From Anaerolineaceae bacterium (GTDB lineage Bacteria > Chloroflexota > Anaerolineae > Anaerolineales > Anaerolineaceae): a stretch of 33,595 nucleotides of DNA. Positions 6,176-18,837 of this stretch are shown piece by piece. Numbering within the stretch: position 1 is the stretch's first letter; every line of letters begins with the position of its first letter. The notes beneath the pieces were generated by a model. It was not told the origin of the DNA and did not search any database. It saw nothing but the letters and a program-made list of their open reading frames with translations. The DNA lies in assembly GCA_018060515.1 (NCBI GenBank), contig JAGOVY010000006.1, forward strand, positions 1 to 33,595, given 5' to 3'. A program made the translations under genes and the position numbers.

Positions 6176-8149
6176 TTAACGGCGTTGCCCACCACCCGCA
6201 CCACGCGATGAGACATTGCCGATAGTAGTCAGTATGGAGCTGACCGTGAAGCTGTCAAATTTACTTCCGCCCGAAAGCGTAGCGTTAACCGCCAGTCCAT
6301 CAACAACCTCGCCTGAAGCCGTTCCGCCGGTGTAAATTGTGTAAGATGAGCCGGTTACCAGATCTGCGGATGTAAACCCGATTGATTGATAATTCTTCGC
6401 CGGTGTAAAAGTTAATACGCTCTTTCCAGAATCGTCCTCAATGTGGAAAGTCGTGCCAGCGGGCAGCGTCGTATCAAACCCCACCAGCAGAGAATTTTGT
6501 GTGGAGTTTTCACTCAGACTCATGGCCATTCCCGCGCTGCCCGCAGTCACCAAGGTTCCACCGCTAACTTTGAAAGTACCGTTATAGTCTATTGCACTGT
6601 TCATATTTTCTGTAGGCCCGTTCACCAGCACCAAACCATCAGTCATCACCACGCTTCCATTAACATCAATTCCATCACCGTCGGCGTTCACCACTACATA
6701 CCCCCCGTTTATATAAAGGTAATAATCACCAGTTTCAGTGAACATATCCTGTCCAAACCCGCCGGGTTGTCCACCTGGTATCAAGCCTTGCTGCCCGCCC
6801 GGTTGCTGCTGCCCCCCCGGTTGCACCTGCCCGCCTGGCTGTCCGCCGGGTAGCTGCGGTAAACCGGTTCCAGCGTTACCCATCCACCCCCGATCCGTCC
6901 CCGAACCATCAACTCCTGAGGATACATTGATACCGTCATCGCTCGAATTGATTCTCAGATTCCCATCATTAATCGTGATCACCGCGCTTTCAATTCCCTC
7001 ATAACTCTCGCTGATTAAGATCTCGCCGCCGTTGATATCAAGCGTCCCGTCAGCGTGCATCCCGTCGTCGCCGCTCGCCAGATACAACTCCCCGTTATTT
7101 ACGGTAATTGAACCATTCGAATGAATACTGTCGTCCGCCGAATTGACCGTGACGCTGCCGCCATTGATTACCACACTCACATCCCCTTTGATGCCTTTGG
7201 CAGAGACGCTGTCATCCAACCAGGTTCCGCTTCCTCCACCCGAAGCCAATACAAGCGTCCCATTGTTAATCAAAACATTCGTTTCAGCGCTGATCGCATC
7301 CCCACCGGCGCTGATATCCATATACCCGCCTTCGATTTGGATGTAACCCAAGCTCGCTTCTTCGGTTTTATCAGATTTGAACCCATCCCCGATAACACTA
7401 ACATGGATATTACCGTCCTTAATAACCAGATAATCCTTTCCTCGAATGCCGTCATCCGCCGCATTCACCCTAATCGTTCCGCCAGTAATCAGCAAACCGT
7501 CTTTGCTTGTAATTCCATCCTGGTAATTGGCGTTCACAATCAAATCCCCGCTGCCGCTGATGGTTAGCGCGTCTTTACTGAAAAGCGCGGCGTTCGGCTC
7601 ATCTTCTTCGGCGCTCTCAAATACATAAGCGGATCCATCCGTCAGCGTATTGACGCTGTCATCGGCGAGAATCACAATCACCTTTTCCGCCTTCACCACA
7701 AACAAAGGAGCGTTGGTCGTGTTGGTGATATCTGCTCCGTCCAAAATCAGCCTGATCACCCCATCTTCCTCTGAATCTACGATCACCTGCCCATCGGCGA
7801 GAGAACCGCTCACGCGATAATTTCCCGGCTGGTTGATGGTGATCAGGTTTTCAGCCACCTCAACCCCATCGCCTTCGACTTGAGCCGTGTTGCCGGTTAA
7901 CGAAATGGCAACCTCATCCTCGCTATTCCACTTGTAATCATCAGAATCTTCATGTGTTCCTGCCAGCACAATTTCAGCAGGTGAAGTTACCCCTGCAGTA
8001 ACAACTTCCGCGGTAGATTCAGCCGCCGTCATAATATTCTCATTTGCAGCACCGCCTGTAGAAACTTCAGTTGCTGAACCTGACGTAGCACAGGCCGCCA
8101 AACCAATTGTCAGAATAATGCTCAATAACAATCCAATTATTTTTTTCAT
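6176..8149 (-). CDS. Lipoprotein with beta-helix carbohydrate-binding domain (Cthe_2159/DUF4353 family)
   Basis: A 657-residue secreted lipoprotein. The signal peptide is MKKIIGLLLSIILTIGLAAC, with lipid attachment at Cys20. A Ser/Thr/Ala-rich linker follows, then many short repeats alternating valine/isoleucine strands with glycine and SxDDGI, NAADDGI or SADDSIHS turns. These are the hallmark of the Cthe_2159-like right-handed parallel beta-helix (PF14262), whose founding member binds cellulose and acidic pectins and carries bound calcium. Around residues 425-470 the fold is interrupted by a low-complexity Pro-Gly-Gln segment. The upstream in-frame start at 8182 is rejected: ATG 8149 has AGGAGA at 8160-8155 and places the signal peptide at the N-terminus. 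It lies upstream of the VTC/DUF4956 genes. That neighbourhood recurs in other bacteria, often with CotH kinases, and suggests a cell-surface role. Confidence 0.88.
   Translation of the reverse strand: MKKIIGLLLSIILTIGLAACATSGSATEVSTGGAANENIMTAAESTAEVVTAGVTSPAEIVLAGTHEDSDDYKWNSEDEVAISLTGNTAQVEGDGVEVAENLITINQPGNYRVSGSLADGQVIVDSEEDGVIRLILDGADITNTTNAPLFVVKAEKVIVILADDSVNTLTDGSAYVFESAEEDEPNAALFSKDALTISGSGDLIVNANYQDGITSKDGLLITGGTIRVNAADDGIRGKDYLVIKDGNIHVSVIGDGFKSDKTEEASLGYIQIEGGYMDISAGGDAISAETNVLINNGTLVLASGGGSGTWLDDSVSAKGIKGDVSVVINGGSVTVNSADDSIHSNGSITVNNGELYLASGDDGMHADGTLDINGGEILISESYEGIESAVITINDGNLRINSSDDGINVSSGVDGSGTDRGWMGNAGTGLPQLPGGQPGGQVQPGGQQQPGGQQGLIPGGQPGGFGQDMFTETGDYYLYINGGYVVVNADGDGIDVNGSVVMTDGLVLVNGPTENMNSAIDYNGTFKVSGGTLVTAGSAGMAMSLSENSTQNSLLVGFDTTLPAGTTFHIEDDSGKSVLTFTPAKNYQSIGFTSADLVTGSSYTIYTGGTASGEVVDGLAVNATLSGGSKFDSFTVSSILTTIGNVSSRGAGGGQRR
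6752..6862 (-). repeat. PGGQ-type low-complexity coding repeat
   Basis: Inside the lipoprotein gene the codons encode a run of PGGQ, PGGQV, PGGQQ and similar units, about ten copies in all. The segment is likely a flexible, exposed loop or cell-wall-spanning linker within the beta-helix. Slippage-prone repeats of this kind can vary in length between strains. Confidence 0.75.
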
Positions 8150-8171
8150 TCTTATCTCCTGTATCTTTCCT

Positions 8172-8252
8172 CCGAAAATCAAAACTTTCGGGTGAGATTA
8201 TTCTATGATACAGAATCTTTCACAGGTTTACATCTGGTATAGACTGTGAAAG
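8172..8252 (-). promoter_or_regulatory. Two inverted repeats upstream of the lipoprotein gene
   Basis: CCGAAA/TTTCGG (8172-8177, 8186-8191) would form a small stem in the 5' leader just upstream of the ribosome site. CTTTCACAG/CTGTGAAAG (8217-8225, 8244-8252) is a perfect 9-bp repeat with an 18-base gap. The second could be an operator for a dimeric regulator such as the neighbouring OmpR protein, or a hairpin. I could not settle on a convincing -35/-10 pair here. Confidence 0.35.
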
Positions 8253-8417: not shown

Positions 8418-9137
8418 CTACTCATCGGTTTCTCCTCCCAAATAAGCGCTGACAACCATCGGGTCACGCAGTAAATCATCCGCTTTACCTTCCAATACCA
8501 CATGCCCGGTATCCAGCACATAGCCGCGGTCGGCAATCGAAAGCGCCATCAACGCATTCTGCTCCACCAGTATTATGCTCGTACCGCCTTCATTAATCTC
8601 ACGTACAATATCAAAAATCTGCTCAACCAAAATCGGAGACAACCCCATCGAAGGTTCATCCAACAACAGCACCTGCGGGTTGGCCATCAGGCCGCGCGCA
8701 ATCGCCAGCATTTGCTGTTCACCACCCGAAAGCGTCCCGCCTGCCTGGTTCCTGCGCTCTTTCAGGCGCGGAAAGCGCACGAACATCGCCTCCATGCGTT
8801 CCTTCACCGTCGAGCGGTCAGCCACCGAATAAGAACCGATTTCAAGATTCTCCCACACCGTCATCGAGGCGAAAACGCGGCGCCCCTCAGGCACATGAAC
8901 CAACCCCTTGCGCACAATTTCCTGCGGCGAAGTGGCGCTGATATTCTCACCGTGATAGCGGATACTGCCGCTGCTCGGGTGCAAAATACCCGAAATCGTA
9001 TTGAGGCTGGTGGATTTTCCCGCCCCGTTTGCACCGATCAGCGCAACAATCTCCCCTTCATTCAAATGAAAACTCACATCCTTAAGCGCGTGGATGGCTC
9101 CATAGTGTACATTAATATTCTCTACATTAAGAATCAT
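8418..9137 (-). CDS. livF: Branched-chain amino acid ABC transporter ATPase LivF
   Basis: A 239-residue ATPase of the high-affinity branched-chain amino-acid (or amide/urea-like) importer. Walker A is GANGAGKST (near 36), the ABC signature LSGGEQQ, Walker B QVLLLDEPSMGL, and the H-loop falls in IILVEQN, where the LivF/G class often has EQN or EHD. Length and the N-terminal LNVENINVHYGAIHALKDVS are typical of LivF. The ATG overlaps the livG stop by 4 bases. It is the last gene of a five-gene operon that ends at the terminator near 8340. The true substrate cannot be read from the ATPase. Confidence 0.95.
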   Translation of the reverse strand: MILNVENINVHYGAIHALKDVSFHLNEGEIVALIGANGAGKSTSLNTISGILHPSSGSIRYHGENISATSPQEIVRKGLVHVPEGRRVFASMTVWENLEIGSYSVADRSTVKERMEAMFVRFPRLKERRNQAGGTLSGGEQQMLAIARGLMANPQVLLLDEPSMGLSPILVEQIFDIVREINEGGTSIILVEQNALMALSIADRGYVLDTGHVVLEGKADDLLRDPMVVSAYLGGETDE

Positions 9138-9943
9138 GAGGTCTTACGCTCCCTGAATTTTTTCGCCAGCGCCGCGCCGCCCGGACCGAGGTAAGCCTCA
9201 ATCACACGCTCATTCTTTTGTATCTCCGCCGGTTCGCCTTCTGCAATTTTTTCACCAAAATCCAGCACAGCAATGCGATCCGAAATTTTCATCACCACAT
9301 GCATATCGTGTTCAATGAGGATAATCGTCATGGTGAACTCAGAGCGCATTCGCTGGATGAGTCCAATCATCTCCTCCGTTTCGTGCGGGTTCATCCCGGC
9401 CGTGGGTTCATCCAGCAGCAGCAGCTTGGGGTTGCTTGCAAGCGCGCGCGCAATTTCCAATTTACGCTGTGCACCGTAGGGCAGGCTAACCGCCGCCGTG
9501 TTTGCCGCTTCACGCAGTCCCACAAAATCCAACCAACGAAACCCCTCCCTGATCGAAAATGCCTCTTCTCGCCGGTAACGCGGCGTATGCAAAATTGCAT
9601 CCAGCCACGATTCCTTCAGCAGCGGGTGGAAGCCCACCATCACATTTTCCAAAGCCGTCAGGTTTGAAAACAGCCTGATATTCTGATACGTACGCGACAA
9701 ACCAATCGAAGCGATCGTATCAGTTCCCTTGTTGCAAATTGAGTTGCCGTAAAACAGTACATCCCCATGATCCGGCGTGTAAAACCCCGAAATACAATTG
9801 AACAGCGTCGTCTTGCCTGCACCGTTGGGTCCGATAATCGAGTATATGGATCCCTCTTCAACTTCAAGGCACACACGGTTAACAGCTGTTAACCCGCCGA
9901 AGATTTTGCTAACCTCACGCGCCTCGATCACCACGTTACTCAT
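9134..9943 (-). CDS. livG: Branched-chain amino acid ABC transporter ATPase LivG
   Basis: A 269-residue second ATPase of the importer. Walker A is GPNGAGKTT, Walker B LLLLDEPTAGMN, and the H-loop His lies in IILIEHDMHVVM. The signature is the LivG variant LPYGAQRKLEIARAL in place of LSGGQ, which is normal for this subfamily. The C-terminal GEKIAEGEPAEIQKNERVIEAYLG is also typical. It overlaps livM by 8 bases and livF by 4. LivF and LivG would form the heterodimeric motor under LivH and LivM. Confidence 0.95.
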   Translation of the reverse strand: MSNVVIEAREVSKIFGGLTAVNRVCLEVEEGSIYSIIGPNGAGKTTLFNCISGFYTPDHGDVLFYGNSICNKGTDTIASIGLSRTYQNIRLFSNLTALENVMVGFHPLLKESWLDAILHTPRYRREEAFSIREGFRWLDFVGLREAANTAAVSLPYGAQRKLEIARALASNPKLLLLDEPTAGMNPHETEEMIGLIQRMRSEFTMTIILIEHDMHVVMKISDRIAVLDFGEKIAEGEPAEIQKNERVIEAYLGPGGAALAKKFRERKTS

Positions 9944-11495
9944 GGCTCACCTCCGCGGCGTCTGCTTTTTCCACCTCTTCAGGCGGCGGCTCATACCTCG
10001 GTCTCTTGGAGGGAATCATCCCATCCGGCCGCGAAATCATCATCACCACTAACAGCGCGCCAAAAGTCAGCAGGCGGAAGTTCGCGAACTCGCGTAAAAT
10101 TTCAGGCAGCCCCTTCAGCGCGAAAGCGCCCAAAAAAGTACCCGGAATGCTCCCCATCCCCCCCACAATGATCAGGCTGAGAACATTGATCGACGCCATC
10201 AGCGCGTGCTCTTCCGGCCCCGTAAACTGGTTGCGGCTGGCGAAAATCGCCCCTGCCAGCCCGGCGAATGCCGCCCCCAGCGCCAGCGCCAACAGCTTAT
10301 AACGGCTGGTATTCACACCTGTGGCGCGGGCTACCGTTTGGTCTTCTCGAATCGCAAGCCAGGCGCGCCCCGAACGTGAGTATTGCAGCCGGTTATAAAC
10401 AAAAGCTGCCAACAGCACCGCTGCCGCAATCAAATACATAAAGTGGGCATCACTGCTGAAAGATCTGCCAAACAACGTCGGCCCGCTGATATTTTGAATC
10501 CCGCGCGGACCACCGGTAAAAGCGGTAAGCACGTCACTTTTCAACAGAATACGCACAATCTCGCCAAAACCAAGCGTAACAATTGCCAGGTAATCGCCGC
10601 GCAGCCGCATCAGCGGCAGCCCCAGCAGCACACCCGCCAGCGCTGCCAACGCCACCCCCAATGCCAGTGCCGGCCAAAACCCCCACATCAAGTTGTGCGG
10701 AATCGGCGAGTTCAGCAGCGCCATCGTGTAAGCCCCGATGGCGAAGAAAGCGATATATCCAAGCACCAACTGACCCGAAAGCCCCACAATAATATTCAGC
10801 CCAAGCCCAAGGATCACATAAATCCCAACCGTGCCAGCCACATAATTCCAGTAAGACCCCCATTTCAGCGGCAGGAAGATCACCAGCAGCCCCAGAACCA
10901 CCGCCCCGCCAATCAGCAGCACCAGCCGATATTTTCCGTGGAGGGTTCGGCTTAGCGTAGCTTTAAGCTTTTGCAGCCCCGCTCCAACCCACCTGAAAGC
11001 ATTTTGGCTGCCTTCGAGGTTGAACACACCATAAATTAAGCCCCCCAACGCTGCTCCGCCGAGGTAAATTCCCGCGCTCGCCAGCGCGCCAGCCAGCGGC
11101 GCCAGATCGAACAGCGTCACGCGAATGAAATCAAAAGACAGCACCGCCAAATACAGTCTGAAATCCACCTTATTGATCAAAAACCAGCCCAAGCCCAGGC
11201 TGAAAAAGAACACAATCAAACCCGAGGCAAACCCTGCCGTTGCCCCCAGCGTCAACCAGCGGGTTACCGATCGCGTTTGGCTCTGTTTTGCCGCCGCAGC
11301 CCCAGCCCACACCGCCAGCAAAAGGGTGTAAATCACCATAAAATGCGGCGCCGGCAGGCTGCCAACCAGCGGCGTCCCGCTGATCTTCGAAAGCAGCGTG
11401 CCCATCAGCGTGTTAAAGCCAATCAGCACCAAAAAAATGTGCACAACCGCGAAAATTACTCCTGTCCGTAAACTGTTCCGAATTTGAGGGTTCAT
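9936..11495 (-). CDS. livM: Branched-chain amino acid ABC permease LivM with extended N-terminus
   Basis: A 519-residue integral membrane permease. The LivM core lies in the C-terminal 310 residues, including GLNIIVGLSGQLVLGYIAFF and LRGDYLAIVTLGFGEIVRI, and the helical region ends near SRPDGMIP. The first 190 or so residues add several further hydrophobic segments (for example VIFAVVHIFLVLIGF and FMVIYTLLLAVWAGAAAA) that a standard 300-430 residue LivM does not have. The start ATG overlaps the livH stop by 4 bases. It pairs with LivH to form the translocation path. The extra N-terminal membrane domain is odd but may be common in related bacteria. Confidence 0.92.
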   Translation of the reverse strand: MNPQIRNSLRTGVIFAVVHIFLVLIGFNTLMGTLLSKISGTPLVGSLPAPHFMVIYTLLLAVWAGAAAAKQSQTRSVTRWLTLGATAGFASGLIVFFFSLGLGWFLINKVDFRLYLAVLSFDFIRVTLFDLAPLAGALASAGIYLGGAALGGLIYGVFNLEGSQNAFRWVGAGLQKLKATLSRTLHGKYRLVLLIGGAVVLGLLVIFLPLKWGSYWNYVAGTVGIYVILGLGLNIIVGLSGQLVLGYIAFFAIGAYTMALLNSPIPHNLMWGFWPALALGVALAALAGVLLGLPLMRLRGDYLAIVTLGFGEIVRILLKSDVLTAFTGGPRGIQNISGPTLFGRSFSSDAHFMYLIAAAVLLAAFVYNRLQYSRSGRAWLAIREDQTVARATGVNTSRYKLLALALGAAFAGLAGAIFASRNQFTGPEEHALMASINVLSLIIVGGMGSIPGTFLGAFALKGLPEILREFANFRLLTFGALLVVMMISRPDGMIPSKRPRYEPPPEEVEKADAAEVSHE

Positions 11496-12592
11496 ACCTT
11501 TTCCTCCGCCAGCACTTCGCCCAACAAACCGGAAGGACGGAAGATCAGGATGATGATCAGCAAAGCAAAAGCAATCACATCCTTAAGCTGAAAGTCAATT
11601 CCCAGCGCAGCCGGTCCCAGAGATTCAATCACACCCAAGAAGAGACCACCCAGCATCGCTCCCGGCAGGTTGCCGATGCCCCCCAGCACCGCCGCCGTAA
11701 AAGCCTTAATCCCCGGGATAAAGCCCACAAAATAATACACCAGCCCATTGTGCAGCCCCCACATCACCCCCGCGGCGCCCGCCAGCGCCCCGCTGATTAG
11801 AAAGGTCCGGCTGATCGTTTTATCCACATCAATCCCCATCAATGCGGCCGTTTTCTTATCCAGCGCCACCGCTCGCATCGCCCGCCCAAAGCTGGTTTTC
11901 TGCACCATCAGGTAAAGCCCGCCGAGCAGCAAAAAAGACAAAACAAAAGTGAAAACCCCCGTATAAGGGATAACCACAGTGCTGCCGTTGATCAGAACCT
12001 TCCAGCCGCTGCCGCGCAGCAAAATATCGGGGTTCGCCACATCGCGCAGTTGCGGGCTGAAGAGCAGTTGCGCCGCATTCTGCAAAAAGATGGAGGCGCC
12101 AATCGCACCGATCAAAGGCACCAGCCGCGGCGCTTTGCGCAGCGGGCGGTACGCAATCTTCTCCAGAAAATATCCCAAAGATGCTGAAACACCCATGCCA
12201 ATGATAAAGGTAATCAAAATCGCCACCACCGGATACGCATTTGAAAAACTCAGATCAGGCTTAACCTTAATCGCTTTGAAAGCCTCCAAAGCAAAAAAAC
12301 AGGCGTAAGCCCCTAACATCATAACTTCGCCGTGGGCGAAGTTAATCATAAATAAGATGCCATATACCAGCGTATAGCCAATGGCGATAAGAGCGTAAAC
12401 CCCGCCGATGATCAACCCAGCAATCAAAAGTCGAGTCCACGTTTCTGGCCCGTACTCCTGCTGGATAAAAAGAACTTGATAAAGCCGGTAAACAATAAAA
12501 ATGATAATGGCTGCGCCAAGCAGAACCCTGGCAAACCTAAGCGCCTGAGCGATCTTGCGGTTTTTACTGATTTTTCTCAATGAATCATTCAT
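11492..12592 (-). CDS. livH: Branched-chain amino acid ABC permease LivH
   Basis: A 366-residue integral membrane permease with the LivH hallmarks GLIIGGVYALIAIGYTLVYGIL, NFAHGEVMMLGAY and RAVALDKKTAALMGID, plus GALAGAAGVMWGL and the glycine-rich GFIPGIKAFTAAVLGGIGNLPGA. About 75 residues precede the core, with one extra predicted helix. ATG 12592 is used. A GTG at 12598 in the same frame is the alternative and has a weak AGAAAG site. The gene is separated from the binding-protein gene by a 76-base gap holding a strong hairpin, so downstream genes may be expressed less than the binding protein. Confidence 0.93.
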   Translation of the reverse strand: MNDSLRKISKNRKIAQALRFARVLLGAAIIIFIVYRLYQVLFIQQEYGPETWTRLLIAGLIIGGVYALIAIGYTLVYGILFMINFAHGEVMMLGAYACFFALEAFKAIKVKPDLSFSNAYPVVAILITFIIGMGVSASLGYFLEKIAYRPLRKAPRLVPLIGAIGASIFLQNAAQLLFSPQLRDVANPDILLRGSGWKVLINGSTVVIPYTGVFTFVLSFLLLGGLYLMVQKTSFGRAMRAVALDKKTAALMGIDVDKTISRTFLISGALAGAAGVMWGLHNGLVYYFVGFIPGIKAFTAAVLGGIGNLPGAMLGGLFLGVIESLGPAALGIDFQLKDVIAFALLIIILIFRPSGLLGEVLAEEKV

Positions 12593-12626
12593 AAACACGT
12601 GGCACTTTCTTCGTGGTCACATAGGT

Positions 12627-12668: not shown

Positions 12669-13898
12669 CTAAGGAGCAGGAACCCAGGCGCCACCTTGAA
12701 TCGTAACGAACATCGGCGGTAAAGTATTGCATTCACCGCTTGCATCGCAGCTGTAAGTGCCGCCAATTCCCTTGAAATCGGTCAGTGAACGTACCGCTGC
12801 AACCAGTGCGCTGCGCGGAACATAAAGGTTGCCGTTATCACTCAAAATCGCCACCGACTTAATCGCTGAAATCAATCCAGCTACTGCGTCATAACCATTC
12901 CAGGTATACGGAGAGAGCGAGCCGGCTTCTTTACCATAGGCTTCAAGGTATGCGGCATCGAAAGCATCTTTTTCTGGTGAATCAGGAGGAATCGGCGCGA
13001 TGGTTGCAAAAGCGCCTTCACCATTGGCTCCCGTTCGGGCAAGGAAATCTGCCCCGTATGTGCCGTCATCCCCAAAGAAGACAGCCGTTTCAAGCCCTGT
13101 CTGCTTCATCTGGTTGAGGATAACAGCGCCTTCTGCCGTGTACCCGCCAAAATAAAGCGCATCGGGGCTGGTGGATGCCACAGCCGAGAGCACCGGCGTG
13201 AAATCAGTTTCGCCTTTGGTCACAGCTTCAGTCGCTACAACCTCGCCGCCCAGTTCAACAAAGCGCGCCGCCACCGCTTCCGCCAGACCCTTGCCGTAGT
13301 CGCTGCCATCGTGCAGCACCGCCAAACGCCGTGCGTTTAACTTGTTATACAAATACTCTGCAGCCGGCGGACCCTGTCGCGCATCGGTGAAAACAATACG
13401 ATTGAAGACAGACGAACCCATTGTCGTCAAAGCCGGCAGACTAGCAGAAGGCGAGAGCATCGCAATCCCCGCTTTTTCATAAATCGGCATGGCGGCAGAT
13501 GTCGCGCCAGAATAAATGTGTCCCGCAACAGCCAACACCCCCTGATCAGAAGCAAACTTGTTCGCCACCGCAGCGCCGCCTTCAGGCGTACCGCCGTCAT
13601 CTTCTGCAAGCAGCACAAACGTAAATCCATGCAGCTCACCCTGGTCCTTAATGGCAATCAAACCGCCTTGCGAAATGTCGATCCCATAAGAAGCGTCCCC
13701 ACCGGTCATGGGTGCGCCCATGCCGATCTTAATTAAATCACCAGGTTTAAACACGGCACAACCCAGGGCATCAGCGCTGCACTCCGCGGGCGCTTCGGCG
13801 TTTGCCGCGGGGGCTTCGGTGGCGCTGCCAGTCGGCTGGCAGGCAGATACCGCGAACGATAATACCAGGATCAGTACAATAAATTTCAAGGCTTTCAT
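12669..13898 (-). CDS. Branched-chain amino acid-type ABC substrate-binding lipoprotein
   Basis: A 409-residue type I periplasmic-binding-fold protein (Peripla_BP_6, LivJ/LivK-like) anchored as a lipoprotein. The signal peptide MKALKFIVLILVLSFAVSAC gives lipid attachment at Cys20. The mature part starts with a low-complexity linker, then IKIGMGAPMTGGDASYGIDISQGGLIAI, the typical ligand-site start, followed by AVAGHIYSGATSAAMPIYEKAG and LAVLHDGSDYGKGLAEA. It probably delivers a branched-chain amino acid, another amino acid or an amide; the fold does not discriminate. The start has AAGGAG about 9 bases upstream. It is the first gene of the liv operon. An AT-rich tandem repeat, TTAATGA twice plus TTAA (13912-13929), sits just upstream of the ribosome site. 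Confidence 0.94.
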   Translation of the reverse strand: MKALKFIVLILVLSFAVSACQPTGSATEAPAANAEAPAECSADALGCAVFKPGDLIKIGMGAPMTGGDASYGIDISQGGLIAIKDQGELHGFTFVLLAEDDGGTPEGGAAVANKFASDQGVLAVAGHIYSGATSAAMPIYEKAGIAMLSPSASLPALTTMGSSVFNRIVFTDARQGPPAAEYLYNKLNARRLAVLHDGSDYGKGLAEAVAARFVELGGEVVATEAVTKGETDFTPVLSAVASTSPDALYFGGYTAEGAVILNQMKQTGLETAVFFGDDGTYGADFLARTGANGEGAFATIAPIPPDSPEKDAFDAAYLEAYGKEAGSLSPYTWNGYDAVAGLISAIKSVAILSDNGNLYVPRSALVAAVRSLTDFKGIGGTYSCDASGECNTLPPMFVTIQGGAWVPAP

Positions 13899-13929: not shown

Positions 13930-14014
13930 GTTATTGTGAAGAACCCGTTCATTCCACATTTCATTTTCTCTTTCAGCACCTCCTCAGTACCCTGCGTTTC
14001 TATTCGAAAAAAGA

Positions 14015-14044
14015 AAAGCCACCTGGTTTCGGTCAGGTGGCTTT
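14015..14044 (-). terminator. Intrinsic terminator after the 35-aa membrane protein gene
   Basis: AAAGCCACCTG (14015-14025) and CAGGTGGCTTT (14034-14044) form an 11-bp stem with an 8-base loop. On the minus strand it is followed by a TTTTCTTTTTT tract. It lies 21 bases after the stop of the small ORF at 14066-14173, a classical distance. Confidence 0.88.
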
Positions 14045-14065
14045 GGGGTTTGCTTCTTATTCCTT

Positions 14066-14173
14066 TTATTCCCTTACTTCTGCCATCCTAACCCGAAAAA
14101 CACCTGCGTAAAGCCACATGCTCGCAAGCATCATAATAAAAATAATAAAGGAAATGGCGAAAGAAGTTGTCAT
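14066..14173 (-). CDS. 35-residue single-span membrane protein
   Basis: ATG 14173 to TAA 14066 encodes 35 residues: MTTSFAISF, then a continuous hydrophobic helix (IIFIMMLASMWLYAGVF), then a basic/acidic tail RVRMAEVRE. A near-consensus promoter (TTGACT, 17 bases, TAAACT) ends 22 bases upstream. A GGA about 6 bases before the ATG is a modest ribosome site, and an intrinsic terminator follows 21 bases after the stop. The complete transcription unit makes a real gene likely. The positive tail suggests an N-out, C-in orientation. Small proteins of this shape often attach to a larger membrane complex; no family is recognised. Its neighbours are the sensor cyclase (upstream) and the liv operon (downstream), both on the same strand. 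Confidence 0.65.
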   Translation of the reverse strand: MTTSFAISFIIFIMMLASMWLYAGVFRVRMAEVRE

Positions 14174-14195
14174 TTGCTATCCAAGATAATTAAAG

Positions 14196-14224
14196 AGTTT
14201 ACGGTTTTTAAATACAAAAGTCAA
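14196..14224 (-). promoter_or_regulatory. Promoter of the 35-residue membrane protein gene
   Basis: On the minus strand TTGACT (14224-14219), exactly 17 bases, then TAAACT (14201-14196). Transcription would start near 14189, about 16 bases before the ATG at 14173. This separates the small gene from the upstream cyclase gene, which ends at 14260. Confidence 0.72.
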
Positions 14225-14259: not shown

Positions 14260-17200
14260 TTATTCAGCATTCCCCATTTCACCCTTCAGCGCGCCTCGTT
14301 TTCGCCTCAATGTGCTGCTCCAACGCGTCACCTGATCGCCCCCCGAATCTTTTGAAACATAGCTGGCATAATCTGCCCGCTCAAACAATTGTTCAAGCGT
14401 CTTGCAGCTCTTATCAAGGCTGGCCACCCCAATGCTGATCGTCAGGCGTAACGGATTTTCAGAGTGAATCAGGTTCTCCTGATGAATGTTTTTGCACAAA
14501 CGTTTGGCCGCTCTTACCGCAGCGCTGGCGCTTGTTTCAGGCATCAGAATCATAAACTCGTCGCCGCCGTAGCGTGCCAAAATGTCCGATCGCCGCAGCG
14601 TGTCAGTAAGCACGCGCGATAGCCGTTGCAGCGCGGCGTCTCCAGCCGTGTGCCCCAGCGTGTCATTGATCAATTTGAAATCATCACAATCTACCATCAC
14701 CACCGAAAGCTCGCGCTCATAACGTAGCGCATTTTGAAAAGTCGGTTCACCCAACTCAATCAGCTTGCGCCGGTTATATAGGCCAGTCAACGCATCGGTC
14801 ACCGCCAGGTTTTGCACCTCGCTGAAGAGACGCGCGTTTTCAATCGCAATCGCCACATTCGCGCCGAGCAGCTCAAGTATTTCAAGGTCCTGCGCCGAAT
14901 GAGCATACGGCTGATAAGACTGCACCGAAACCAACCCAATCAGGCTCAAACCAATCTTTAATGGAACAATCATTACAGATTGCGAAACAGATTCATCGTC
15001 CTGTTCCCCAACCAAAATCGCCCCGGTTTCATCTGCCAGATCCTGGGTGAAGTTCTCATAAAAAACCGATTTCCCCGTTTGCACCACCCTCCCATACAGC
15101 CCCTGATCCATCGGCTGCGCAGAGAGCGCCATCGGCTGACCGTGGTCAACCATAAACACGTCCTCCACCATCCCCGTACCCTCATTCAACTGCGAAATAC
15201 CGAAGAATTCAGTCAGCATCAGCGCAGAAGTAGCCTGGTAGAAAGCCGTGTAAATCTCATCAGAGCGGATATTCGCGCTGATAACCTGGCTGAGCTTATA
15301 CAGGGTTTCAAAACGGCTCGCTGACTGCAGCGCACCCTCGTAGAGGCGCGCATTTTCAAGAGCAATCGCCACCTGGTCCGCGAAGGCAATCACCATGCGT
15401 TCGTGCTCTTTGTTAAAATGGTGTTTTGTGTGGCTGTCCAGCGCAAGAATGCCGATCGGCTGGTTCTGAATCTTAAGCGGAACACCAAGCCACGATCTAA
15501 CCGGCTGGTTCGAGCCGGCATAGCGGTTGAAATCTGGCGCAGCTTCAACAATATCACCAATAATTTTCGGTTCATTATCCAGGTAAACCGTCGCCCCGGG
15601 GTTGGTGCGCTCCAGCGAAAATTCCAGCCCCATCACTTCACTAAAATCATCAAAGCCATGGCCGCCTACAATCTGCAAGCCGCATTTGGTGAACAACAAT
15701 ACCGCGGCGCTGTCATAGGGCACCACATGTGACAGCTGCTCAAGAATAAGCTCAATCGTCTTCTCCTGATTGAGCGCAGAAACAACCACCGCCCCGGCTT
15801 TTCGAATGGTTTCAGCTTCTTCAGCCCGGCGCCGCGCTTCTTCATACAGCTGTGTGTTGCGCAAAGCCACAGTCGCTTGCTGGGCAAAAAGGCTCAACAA
15901 ACGTGTGTCATTCTCATTAAAACTGTGCTTCTGTTGAATATTGGCAACGTTCAGCACCCCAAGTACCTCATTACTCCCTCCAAGCATGGGCACTGCCAAC
16001 CCGCTGTAGATATTGTGAACCTCATGAGATTTTAATCGGCCTTCCCATTGGTTGTAATGCGTAATCGTCGCCGCCTGCTTTGTTATAACCGCCCGCCCGA
16101 TAAGTCCTTCACCAGGTTTGACGATCAGGCCCGTGGTATCCGGCGTGAAATTCTCAGAAACAAGAATGCGAATCGTATCACCCTCCGCATCGTAAATGCC
16201 GAGCTCAGCCACCTCAGCATTTAACAGCCGCATGGCACGTTTCACAATTTCCTTCAAAAGAATGTTCACATCGAGCTGCGCGCTGATGTCGCTCAGCGTG
16301 GCGCGTAACCCGTCCAACTCCTTGATACGCGTTTTTTCGGCGCTGTACAGACGCGCGTTCTTGATTGCAAGTGAAGCCTGCACGGCAAAAACTTCAAGCA
16401 GCTTAATGTGTTCCTCAGTGTAAAATGCCGGTTCTAACTTATTCAGCGTAAAGAACCAATCAATCTGCCCGTCAATCTGAATTGGAACCCCCACCCAGCA
16501 ATGATAATCAGCCGAAATCGGAGACGGTATAAAACTCGCTTCCTGTGCGATGTCATCAATAATAAAAGCTCTCTTGCTCGAGGTTAACCTCTCCAGGTTT
16601 GCCGTCTGCTCAATTTTCAAGCGCATCTTCTGATACTCTTTGAGGTAACGCTTGTCCGAAATTTCAAAACCCCGCGTCCGTGCAACTACAGCCTCCCCTT
16701 CATCCACCTGCAGCACAGTGCTGCCGTCGTATGGCACCAACCGCGAGAGCTGATCGAGCAGCAAATCCAGCACTTTGTTGAGATCAAGCGAGGTCGTCAG
16801 CGCAGTGCTGATGTCGCGCATCGTCTCTGCCATGCGCCGTTGATCATGCTCGCTCTTGAACAACCTCACGCGTTCAATCGCAACCGCCAGAGAATCACAA
16901 ATTGTTTGCAGCAGGCGAATCTTGTTGTCGTTCAACGGCGTATGCACATCCTCGTTGAAATTCAGCACCCCCAAAGGTTGTTTGCCAAGGTACAGCGGAA
17001 AGGCATAATGCACCGCGTCACTGCTCAACGCGCTGCAGCGGCATTCTTTCACCAATTGTGGATAGGTGAGTTTCCCTTCCATCAACTTCGTCATACACTT
17101 CGGCTGCCTGCTGCCCAATTTGTCGCTCGACAATAAATTATCTTCCTCAAGCGGATGGTACTCATACCGTTGGTGCCCTGAGGCATGCGCTCCAAGCAGG

Positions 17201-18765
17201 TAAAGCCAAATACTCTCCGAACGTGTGATACTCTTAACGGTTTCAAGCACAGGCAGCAGCGCATTCCGCAGTGAAGTAGCCTGGTTGAGGTCTTCGGTTA
17301 CACTCCGCAGCGTTGCCAGCTCTTCAACCCGCAGTTGAACAGTCTCAAGCGCCGCATGCGTCGTCGTCTCTGCCCGTTTCCGTTCACGGATGTCTTGCAG
17401 CATGATAAAGTACGCGGTGGCTGAACTGCCGCTGATCGGAGTGATATTAAGCTCCACCGGAATCTTCTCGCCATCAGCCCGCAGCAGCGCCAGCTCTCCC
17501 GATGAAAATGGTTCGCGCAGCGCCGTTTCAGCCACATTCGGCGCCCCGACGATAATCTCACCCAGCCGGCTGCCCCGGCACCTTTCCAGCGTATAACCCG
17601 CAAGGCTCGTAAACTGATCATTGCTCTCAAGAATTGCCCCCTGCGGGTCAAGCAGCAGAATGCTGTAACTCGTGTTTTCAAAAATCGCGTGGTACCGTTC
17701 CTGAATCAGCACCCTTTCGCTTTCAAGCCTGATTCTTTGCGTAATATCCCGCAGCACCACCAGCGCGCCCACTACCTTGCTCGCCGCCCCAATCAGCGGA
17801 GAAATGCGCATGTCATAAGTTTTCTCGCCCAGCCTGATTTCTTCTGAATGATCGCGCATCCACTCTTCCGCCAGAGTGAACCCCGCGTTCTGTTGCAGCG
17901 CAGCAGCGAACGGTTTGCCAATATTTGCATCCAAATCAAGAAGCTCAATCTCCGCCGCGCTTGGGTTGTAATCAAGAATTTCTCCCCGCGAATTGAGCGT
18001 AATCACACCATCACTCAACTGTTTAAGCAGCGAACTGCCCGAAACCGGAATCACCTCCAAAATACGGTTGCCCAGCAAGCCGTATGCCAGCACAATAATC
18101 CCGATCAGCAGCGCAATCAGCGGAATATTCACCACGCTGTTATTCAACCACGCGGGTATCGAGAGCGCAGTGGCCGCAATGAAGAGCACAGCCCCGAAAA
18201 GTAAAATCCCCACCTGTCCTCGCTGCCAGCGCGGTGAACGCACATAAGTGTTCAATAACAGCCACAAAGCCGCCAGCATCAGCCCGATATTGTAGGCAAT
18301 AATCACCCAAAACCAGGGTCCGTGTACGGGCTGCGTAGGTTGCAGCCAGCCAGCCGAAAGTGACCCCGAATCAGGGATCTTCCTGAACAATTCGTGTGCA
18401 TTGTTCGTCGCAATCAGAATGACCGACAGCGTAGGAATCACATACAACAGCAGCAGGGAAGGGTGGCGCGAAGCCTCGTTTCTGCCGGTGAAAACCAAAG
18501 TCAGGGACAGAAACACCGGCGCCATAAACAGCGCGGGCACATACTGCAAATCGTCAAAAAGCTGGGTATACAAAAAAGACCGCGAAACAAGTTCAAGTAC
18601 ATAAATAACCCCCCAGGCAGCCCCCAACGCAGCCAGCGCCACAAGCAACGGCGCGCCCGAAACGCGCCGATGAAACAAAGCAAAGAACATCACCACAATA
18701 GAAAAAATGGTCGCAATTGCCGTAATTAACAGAATCGTATAAGAAGATAATAAAAAGCCGGTCAT
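14260..18765 (-). CDS. Multi-sensor diguanylate cyclase (7TM, two PAS, about five GAF, GGDEF)
   Basis: A 1501-residue signalling protein. The N-terminal 225 or so residues form a seven-helix membrane module like the HisKA_7TM domain. Two PAS domains follow (starting near LSDGVITLNSRGEILDYNP and IFENTSYSILLLDPQGAIL), with predicted coiled-coil linkers between later parts. About five GAF domains then run from roughly 490 to 1320, recognisable by repeated VPYDG/VPYDSAAVL, WVGVPIQ, GLAVPML and WLGVPLK cores and LAIKNARLY/VALRNTQLY/IALENARLY end helices. The C-terminal GGDEF domain has YGGDEFMILMP at about residue 1400, with the RxxD inhibitory site (RRSD) five residues before it, so it should make c-di-GMP and be product-inhibited. 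No kinase domain is present. ATG 18765 is preferred over an in-frame TTG at 18801, because it places the first helix at the N-terminus. Confidence 0.92.
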   Translation of the reverse strand: MTGFLLSSYTILLITAIATIFSIVVMFFALFHRRVSGAPLLVALAALGAAWGVIYVLELVSRSFLYTQLFDDLQYVPALFMAPVFLSLTLVFTGRNEASRHPSLLLLYVIPTLSVILIATNNAHELFRKIPDSGSLSAGWLQPTQPVHGPWFWVIIAYNIGLMLAALWLLLNTYVRSPRWQRGQVGILLFGAVLFIAATALSIPAWLNNSVVNIPLIALLIGIIVLAYGLLGNRILEVIPVSGSSLLKQLSDGVITLNSRGEILDYNPSAAEIELLDLDANIGKPFAAALQQNAGFTLAEEWMRDHSEEIRLGEKTYDMRISPLIGAASKVVGALVVLRDITQRIRLESERVLIQERYHAIFENTSYSILLLDPQGAILESNDQFTSLAGYTLERCRGSRLGEIIVGAPNVAETALREPFSSGELALLRADGEKIPVELNITPISGSSATAYFIMLQDIRERKRAETTTHAALETVQLRVEELATLRSVTEDLNQATSLRNALLPVLETVKSITRSESIWLYLLGAHASGHQRYEYHPLEEDNLLSSDKLGSRQPKCMTKLMEGKLTYPQLVKECRCSALSSDAVHYAFPLYLGKQPLGVLNFNEDVHTPLNDNKIRLLQTICDSLAVAIERVRLFKSEHDQRRMAETMRDISTALTTSLDLNKVLDLLLDQLSRLVPYDGSTVLQVDEGEAVVARTRGFEISDKRYLKEYQKMRLKIEQTANLERLTSSKRAFIIDDIAQEASFIPSPISADYHCWVGVPIQIDGQIDWFFTLNKLEPAFYTEEHIKLLEVFAVQASLAIKNARLYSAEKTRIKELDGLRATLSDISAQLDVNILLKEIVKRAMRLLNAEVAELGIYDAEGDTIRILVSENFTPDTTGLIVKPGEGLIGRAVITKQAATITHYNQWEGRLKSHEVHNIYSGLAVPMLGGSNEVLGVLNVANIQQKHSFNENDTRLLSLFAQQATVALRNTQLYEEARRRAEEAETIRKAGAVVVSALNQEKTIELILEQLSHVVPYDSAAVLLFTKCGLQIVGGHGFDDFSEVMGLEFSLERTNPGATVYLDNEPKIIGDIVEAAPDFNRYAGSNQPVRSWLGVPLKIQNQPIGILALDSHTKHHFNKEHERMVIAFADQVAIALENARLYEGALQSASRFETLYKLSQVISANIRSDEIYTAFYQATSALMLTEFFGISQLNEGTGMVEDVFMVDHGQPMALSAQPMDQGLYGRVVQTGKSVFYENFTQDLADETGAILVGEQDDESVSQSVMIVPLKIGLSLIGLVSVQSYQPYAHSAQDLEILELLGANVAIAIENARLFSEVQNLAVTDALTGLYNRRKLIELGEPTFQNALRYERELSVVMVDCDDFKLINDTLGHTAGDAALQRLSRVLTDTLRRSDILARYGGDEFMILMPETSASAAVRAAKRLCKNIHQENLIHSENPLRLTISIGVASLDKSCKTLEQLFERADYASYVSKDSGGDQVTRWSSTLRRKRGALKGEMGNAE

Positions 18766-18837
18766 CTGCGCAAGCACCAAAAATGGGTTTCCATTCCCCA
18801 ATCACCAATCAGAAAAAATACAGTACCCTGAATGCTA

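Follow-up and report, generated by a model that had tools for sequence, protein, structure and literature searches.

The minus strand of the window, the 33,595-nt stretch of an Anaerolineaceae contig that was analysed here, carries a 35-codon open reading frame (ORF) immediately 5' of an amino-acid transport operon. Does this ORF encode a small membrane protein, as a preliminary description of the DNA proposed, or does it serve the genes behind it? It is most likely a regulatory leader rather than a gene, and we assign a probability of about 0.88 to its taking part in ribosome-mediated attenuation of liv operon transcription. The computed support for this reading is that the anatomy is conserved, the competing helices exclude each other, the antiterminator strands coevolve, and leaders at related operons match the pathway of the genes behind them.

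All elements of the leader locus lie on the minus strand, which the preliminary description left unstated, between a gene for a GGDEF/GAF/PAS protein (14260-18801) and a livK-like gene (12669-13898). A motif scan places the promoter of the leader transcript, TTGACT-N17-TAAACT, at 14196-14224, and the ATG-started leader ORF (MTTSFAISFIIFIMMLASMWLYAGVFRVRMAEVRE) follows at 14066-14173; both are present as first described. Hairpin P1, a probable RNA polymerase pause hairpin, is internal to the ORF (14102-14131). The final ORF codons contain the 5' strand of a predicted antiterminator, UUUCGGGUUAGGAUGGC (14082-14098), whose 3' strand, GCCACCUGACCGAAA (14027-14041), comprises the 5' arm and loop of an intrinsic terminator. 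The terminator is an 11-bp hairpin with an 8-nt loop, 21 nt past the ORF stop (14015-14044), and the T-rich tail TCTTTTTT directly follows it (14005-14014). It had been correctly noticed but falls outside 14066-14224, the interval assigned to the whole unit. The motif scan found no further promoter-like site between the hairpin and livK. By inspection, the peptide has a hydrophobic stretch with charged ends, and it has no match in Pfam or NCBIfam.

The single signals of this locus occur near chance frequency. In 8 kb, promoter-like sites number 10 (5.5 expected) and terminator-like sites likewise 10 (11.3 expected). The argument that the arrangement is hard to explain by chance thus fails for the signals taken singly and holds through their conservation, which is what makes them significant. 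In DNA read upstream of the livK orthologue, the order promoter, 33-36 codon ORF, hairpin, and livK recurs in 13/13 readable genus loci (G002 was left out of the genus set because of Ns at the attenuator). TTGACT-N17 is kept in 10/14 genus loci with related hexamers in the remainder, and a TTG..-N17-TA...T promoter is recognisable in most. The terminator stem is conserved in 13/13 genus sequences, and every readable genus locus has a terminator between the ORF and livK. The hairpin was first taken as the end of a stand-alone gene; it is better read as the attenuator terminator ahead of livKHMGF.

The downstream genes form a full branched-chain amino-acid type ABC operon in the order livK-H-M-G-F, all on the minus strand. 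The first controlled gene encodes a livK-like substrate-binding lipoprotein (12669-13898; Peripla_BP_6, 5e-46). It is followed by a livH-like permease (11492-12598; BPD_transp_2; best NCBIfam model LivH, 2.8e-70), a livM-like permease (9936-11495; LivM, 6.7e-86), a livG-like ATPase (9134-9943; LivG, 7.4e-92), and a livF-like ATPase (8418-9137; LivF, 2.4e-83), with each of these NCBIfam matches below its cut-off. Downstream of the operon, on the same strand, is a gene for a 668-aa Cthe_2159-type carbohydrate-binding protein (6176-8182).

On its other side the operon adjoins the gene at 14260-18801 (minus), which encodes a 1513-aa protein with HisKA_7TM, PAS, several GAF, and GGDEF domains; this neighbourhood is kept in some congeners only. 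Because the GGDEF gene is retained in only 3/8 genus relatives, the promoter-ORF-hairpin unit belongs to the liv operon, and a common function with the upstream gene was rejected.

The terminator has a competitor. UUUCGGGUUAGGAUGGC, at the end of the ORF, pairs with GCCACCUGACCGAAA over 15 bp at -20.8 kcal/mol, and 32/5000 dinucleotide shuffles of the ORF tail pair as well. Since the terminator needs GCCACCUGACCGAAA for its 5' arm and loop, the two structures are mutually exclusive. The loop ACC, which is unpaired in the terminator, is conserved in 11/13 genus sequences, as expected if it serves the antiterminator. As long as the terminator 3' arm has yet to be transcribed, the RNA is predicted to fold into P1 and the antiterminator; once a ribosome sits on the stop codon, no structure but the terminator can form. 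In one context the equilibrium favours the terminator over the antiterminator (-31.6 versus -24.8 kcal/mol), so the switch has to act kinetically. There is no overlap between P1 and the antiterminator, and the predicted default without translation is therefore read-through, unlike in the E. coli trp leader.

Comparison of 35 non-redundant elements from related loci indicates that the antiterminator pairing coevolves. Strands of the same element pair at a mean of -16.9 kcal/mol and strands of different elements at -13.4 kcal/mol, with 0/100,000 permutations as good (z -8.6). Antiterminator cells are paired in 84% of cases versus 22-45% when the strands are slid, and G-C to A-U exchanges are seen. 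Strand pairs include GGUUAGG/CCUGACC, GGUUGGG/CCCAACC, GUUCGGG/CCCGAAC, and GAUUAAGGG/CCCUUAAUC. Column-wise covariation is modest (13 double-change cells versus 7.3 shuffled, 4/500) because the strands shift register, and the duplex permutation test was used for this reason. P1 is found in 31/35 elements at z<-1.5 (mean z -2.9), and its sequence varies.

The locus thus has a terminator between leader ORF and genes, an antiterminator that excludes it, and a short in-frame ORF overlapping the switch. In the attenuator model, translation, stalling, pausing, the direction of control, and the identity of the amino acids sensed are inferred, and events would unfold as follows. Transcription would start about 15 nt ahead of the leader ATG, and RNA polymerase would probably pause at P1, which would let the ribosome catch up. 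The control codons would be the hydrophobic ones, namely Ile, Leu, and Val, and here also Phe, Tyr, Trp, and Met. When charged tRNAs are plentiful, the ribosome would cross the antiterminator strand to the stop codon and keep this strand covered, so that the terminator forms and transcription ends. When they are scarce, the ribosome would stall upstream of about codon 21 and leave UUUCGGGUUAGGAUGGC free. With the terminator 3' arm still to be synthesised, the free strand would then pair with GCCACCUGACCGAAA, allowing read-through into livKHMGF.

The ORF itself is under constraint. An ATG-started frame that runs through the antiterminator strand and stops soon after is kept in 40/43 elements versus 5.3 expected in shuffles. 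In one clade of close relatives pN/pS is 0.25, which marks amino-acid constraint. Synonymous divergence is low in the C-terminal antiterminator segment (pS 0.08-0.19 versus 0.30-0.54 in the remaining ORF), and both observations fit a putative translated leader under RNA constraint. A peptide search, which had been proposed as a check, returned a significant match only in G011 (E=4e-5) and weak matches in several other genus members. Conservation as a protein does not extend further: at family distance the hydrophobic codon composition is kept and the amino-acid sequence is not, and the RNA pairings persist. The original proposal of a complete membrane-protein transcription unit is borne out in part: there is good support for a small ORF that is translated and has its own promoter, but not for a free-standing unit.

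Elements of this kind also occur in relatives across the class, the named relatives being Anaerolineaceae, Chloroflexota. R1, a covariance model with terminator-only structure, matches 100/147 genomes of the family when the cut-off is set laxly at E<=1, a level at which weak matches include chance ones. With a second model, R2, and E<=0.01, 67/396 genomes of the class gave matches. The incomplete genome from which the window comes yields this element alone with R2, plus one weaker candidate with R1. The elements inspected precede ilvD, ilvB, ilvE, cimA-like (L065), leuA-like (L159), and liv substrate-binding protein genes as well as an ECF-type transporter operon, where gene names outside the window were recognised from protein starts and not by family search. 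L080 and L081 were left out because they were judged false, being ordinary gene ends; L052 and L059 were retained with no downstream gene identified.

The codon content of these leaders follows the genes that they precede. Genes behind Ile/Leu/Val-rich leaders (ilvD, ilvB, ilvE, leuA-like, cimA-like, and liv) match the control-codon pathway, and the leader of the leuA-like locus has an LLLL run. Leaders of biosynthesis genes are rich in Ile/Leu/Val and those of transporters in Ile/Leu/Val plus Phe/Tyr/Trp/Met: ilv-type leaders contain 61% Ile/Leu/Val, 6% aromatics, and no Met, versus 35%, 23%, and 9% in liv-type leaders (p=1.7e-7 for Ile/Leu/Val; p about 1e-7 for each class). Codons 2-22 of the window's leader include 6 Ile/Leu/Val and 5 aromatic codons with no long single-amino-acid run. 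Lacking one dominant amino acid, this leader does not make its own control codons obvious by itself. Gly+Ala amounts to 6-7% in both leader types compared with 27% in the transmembrane segments of proteins encoded in the window. Given this low share and the codon content, the apparent membrane helix is best explained as a run of control codons.

Two sets of related loci extend this picture. Class-wide branched-chain amino-acid leaders in Anaerolineae (L048-L066, L135-L161, L197-L216) stand before ilvD, ilvB, ilvE, cimA-like, and leuA-like genes, and the 14 loci tested from this set gave no Rfam match at gathering scores. At L054, L055, L058, L060, L071, L073, and L074, a like attenuator precedes an ECF-type transporter operon that encodes a 187-193 aa membrane protein; at L071 the next genes encode a two-domain ATPase and a permease-like protein. 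The position behind such an attenuator suggests a candidate ECF transporter for hydrophobic amino acids.

An attenuator whose leader peptide also acts in trans, for example by binding the transporter or an mRNA, is improbable. The peTrpL peptide of Sinorhizobium meliloti is a precedent for a leader peptide with a trans role (PMC7298713), and a hydrophobic peptide would insert in membranes. Yet the leaders have no conserved residue pattern beyond the RNA-constrained parts, and ilv-type leaders are equally hydrophobic in build with no adjoining transporter. Still less probable is a riboswitch, T-box, or protein-binding attenuator with an incidental ORF: terminator and antiterminator alone would fit any attenuator class, but the locus has no conserved ligand-binding core, the ORF stays intact far above the shuffled expectation, and leader codons track the downstream pathway. 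The window and 14 related loci gave no Rfam riboswitch or T-box match at the gathering score, and a riboswitch or T-box was rejected on this ground. Least probable is that the locus is an independent gene, complete with promoter and terminator, for a functional single-pass membrane protein. The conserved ORF, its hydrophobic stretch with charged ends, and the pN/pS ratio of one clade would suit this reading, but it was rejected as the main function on composition without the Gly/Ala of membrane helices, on RNA constraint (C-terminal codons conserved as nucleotides, sequence diverging past recognition within the family while pairings persist, and only RNA-constrained parts and hydrophobicity persisting outside the genus, with no protein family), and on a context that is always immediately 5' of an amino-acid operon with a terminator in between.

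The attenuator of the liv operon may be followed by a second element. An orphan Shine-Dalgarno sequence, GAGGAGGTG, lies at 13977-13985 (minus), about 82-85 nt before the livK ATG, with no ORF attached. Downstream of the terminator, GGAGG, mostly as AAGGAGGTG, recurs in 29/29 transport-type loci versus 1.8 expected, about 80-88 nt before the gene start codon (a few at 77 or 94-107). A second leader ORF behind AGGAGGTG was rejected, as no start codon or open frame is common to the loci. Nine Anaerolineaceae genomes together contain 146 instances of the pattern AGGAGGT-N54-82-GGAG-ATG versus 29 for the reversed control. Most inspected genes behind it look like ABC-transporter substrate-binding lipoproteins, as do all six distinct pattern loci read in the window's own genome. 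The orphan sequence AGGAGGTG resembles the STAB-SD of Bacillus cry3A mRNA (PMC4113751) and by this analogy is possibly an mRNA-stabilising 30S-binding site. A wider proposal is tentative and rather doubtful: transport-type leaders might be multi-amino-acid sensors, reading out the overall supply of hydrophobic amino acids through a mixture of Ile/Leu/Val, Phe/Tyr/Trp, and Met codons that mirrors the substrate range of the transporter, with the orphan Shine-Dalgarno at about -82 as a second, post-transcriptional layer that lifts the mRNA of the substrate-binding protein to a higher level than the remaining operon.

Among Rfam families, the highest-ranking independent match to exactly this stretch is RF01859 Phe_leader (14009-14170, minus; E=0.0028), at 30.5 bits versus a gathering score of 55. 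It shares the architecture of leader ORF, antiterminator, and terminator; because the score is under gathering and Phe_leader is a proteobacterial phenylalanine leader, this is resemblance and not membership. The C. glutamicum ilvBNC attenuator, described by a three-hairpin model (PMC11857589), likewise has a short leader peptide with Ile/Leu/Val codons, a transcription start almost at the leader ATG, a pause/anti-antiterminator hairpin, and a strand shared by antiterminator and terminator. It differs in controlling biosynthesis rather than transport, in its 15-residue leader, and in an anti-antiterminator that overlaps the antiterminator, which P1 does not. In Staphylococcus aureus, a leucine-rich attenuator peptide lies upstream of ilvD and attenuation was proposed (PMC5794164); like the ilvD relatives described here it combines a leader peptide with a terminator, but it is Leu-specific, from a Firmicute, and not attached to a transporter operon.

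Attenuators ahead of ABC transporter operons, as here, were predicted by Naville and Gautheret (PMC2965389), often overlying ORFs labelled hypothetical. A search of their text by term gave no mention of Chloroflexi, livK, or branched-chain amino acids. The present arrangement fits classical leader-peptide attenuation, from which it departs in that the leader ORF continues through the antiterminator strand, P1 does not compete with that strand, and the target genes form a transport operon. The mechanism itself is known. Among the open papers searched, none appears to describe it acting on a transport operon in Anaerolineae, and none that was found describes such an attenuator in Chloroflexota. 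Novelty is claimed cautiously because a 2010 comparative survey of attenuation (Mol Biol 44:128-139, cited in PMC4833913) may already cover Chloroflexota.

A general trap is illustrated by this locus, in that leaders rich in Ile, Leu, and Val codons resemble single-pass membrane proteins. If leader codons do follow transporter specificity, they could predict the cargo of uncharacterised ABC and ECF transporters, and testable elements lie near cultured strains such as Longilinea arvoryzae KOME-1, a relative that carries the element (L091). The supposed small protein becomes a predicted switch for amino-acid uptake, and branched-chain amino-acid genes of the class Anaerolineae would join those controlled by leader-peptide attenuation.
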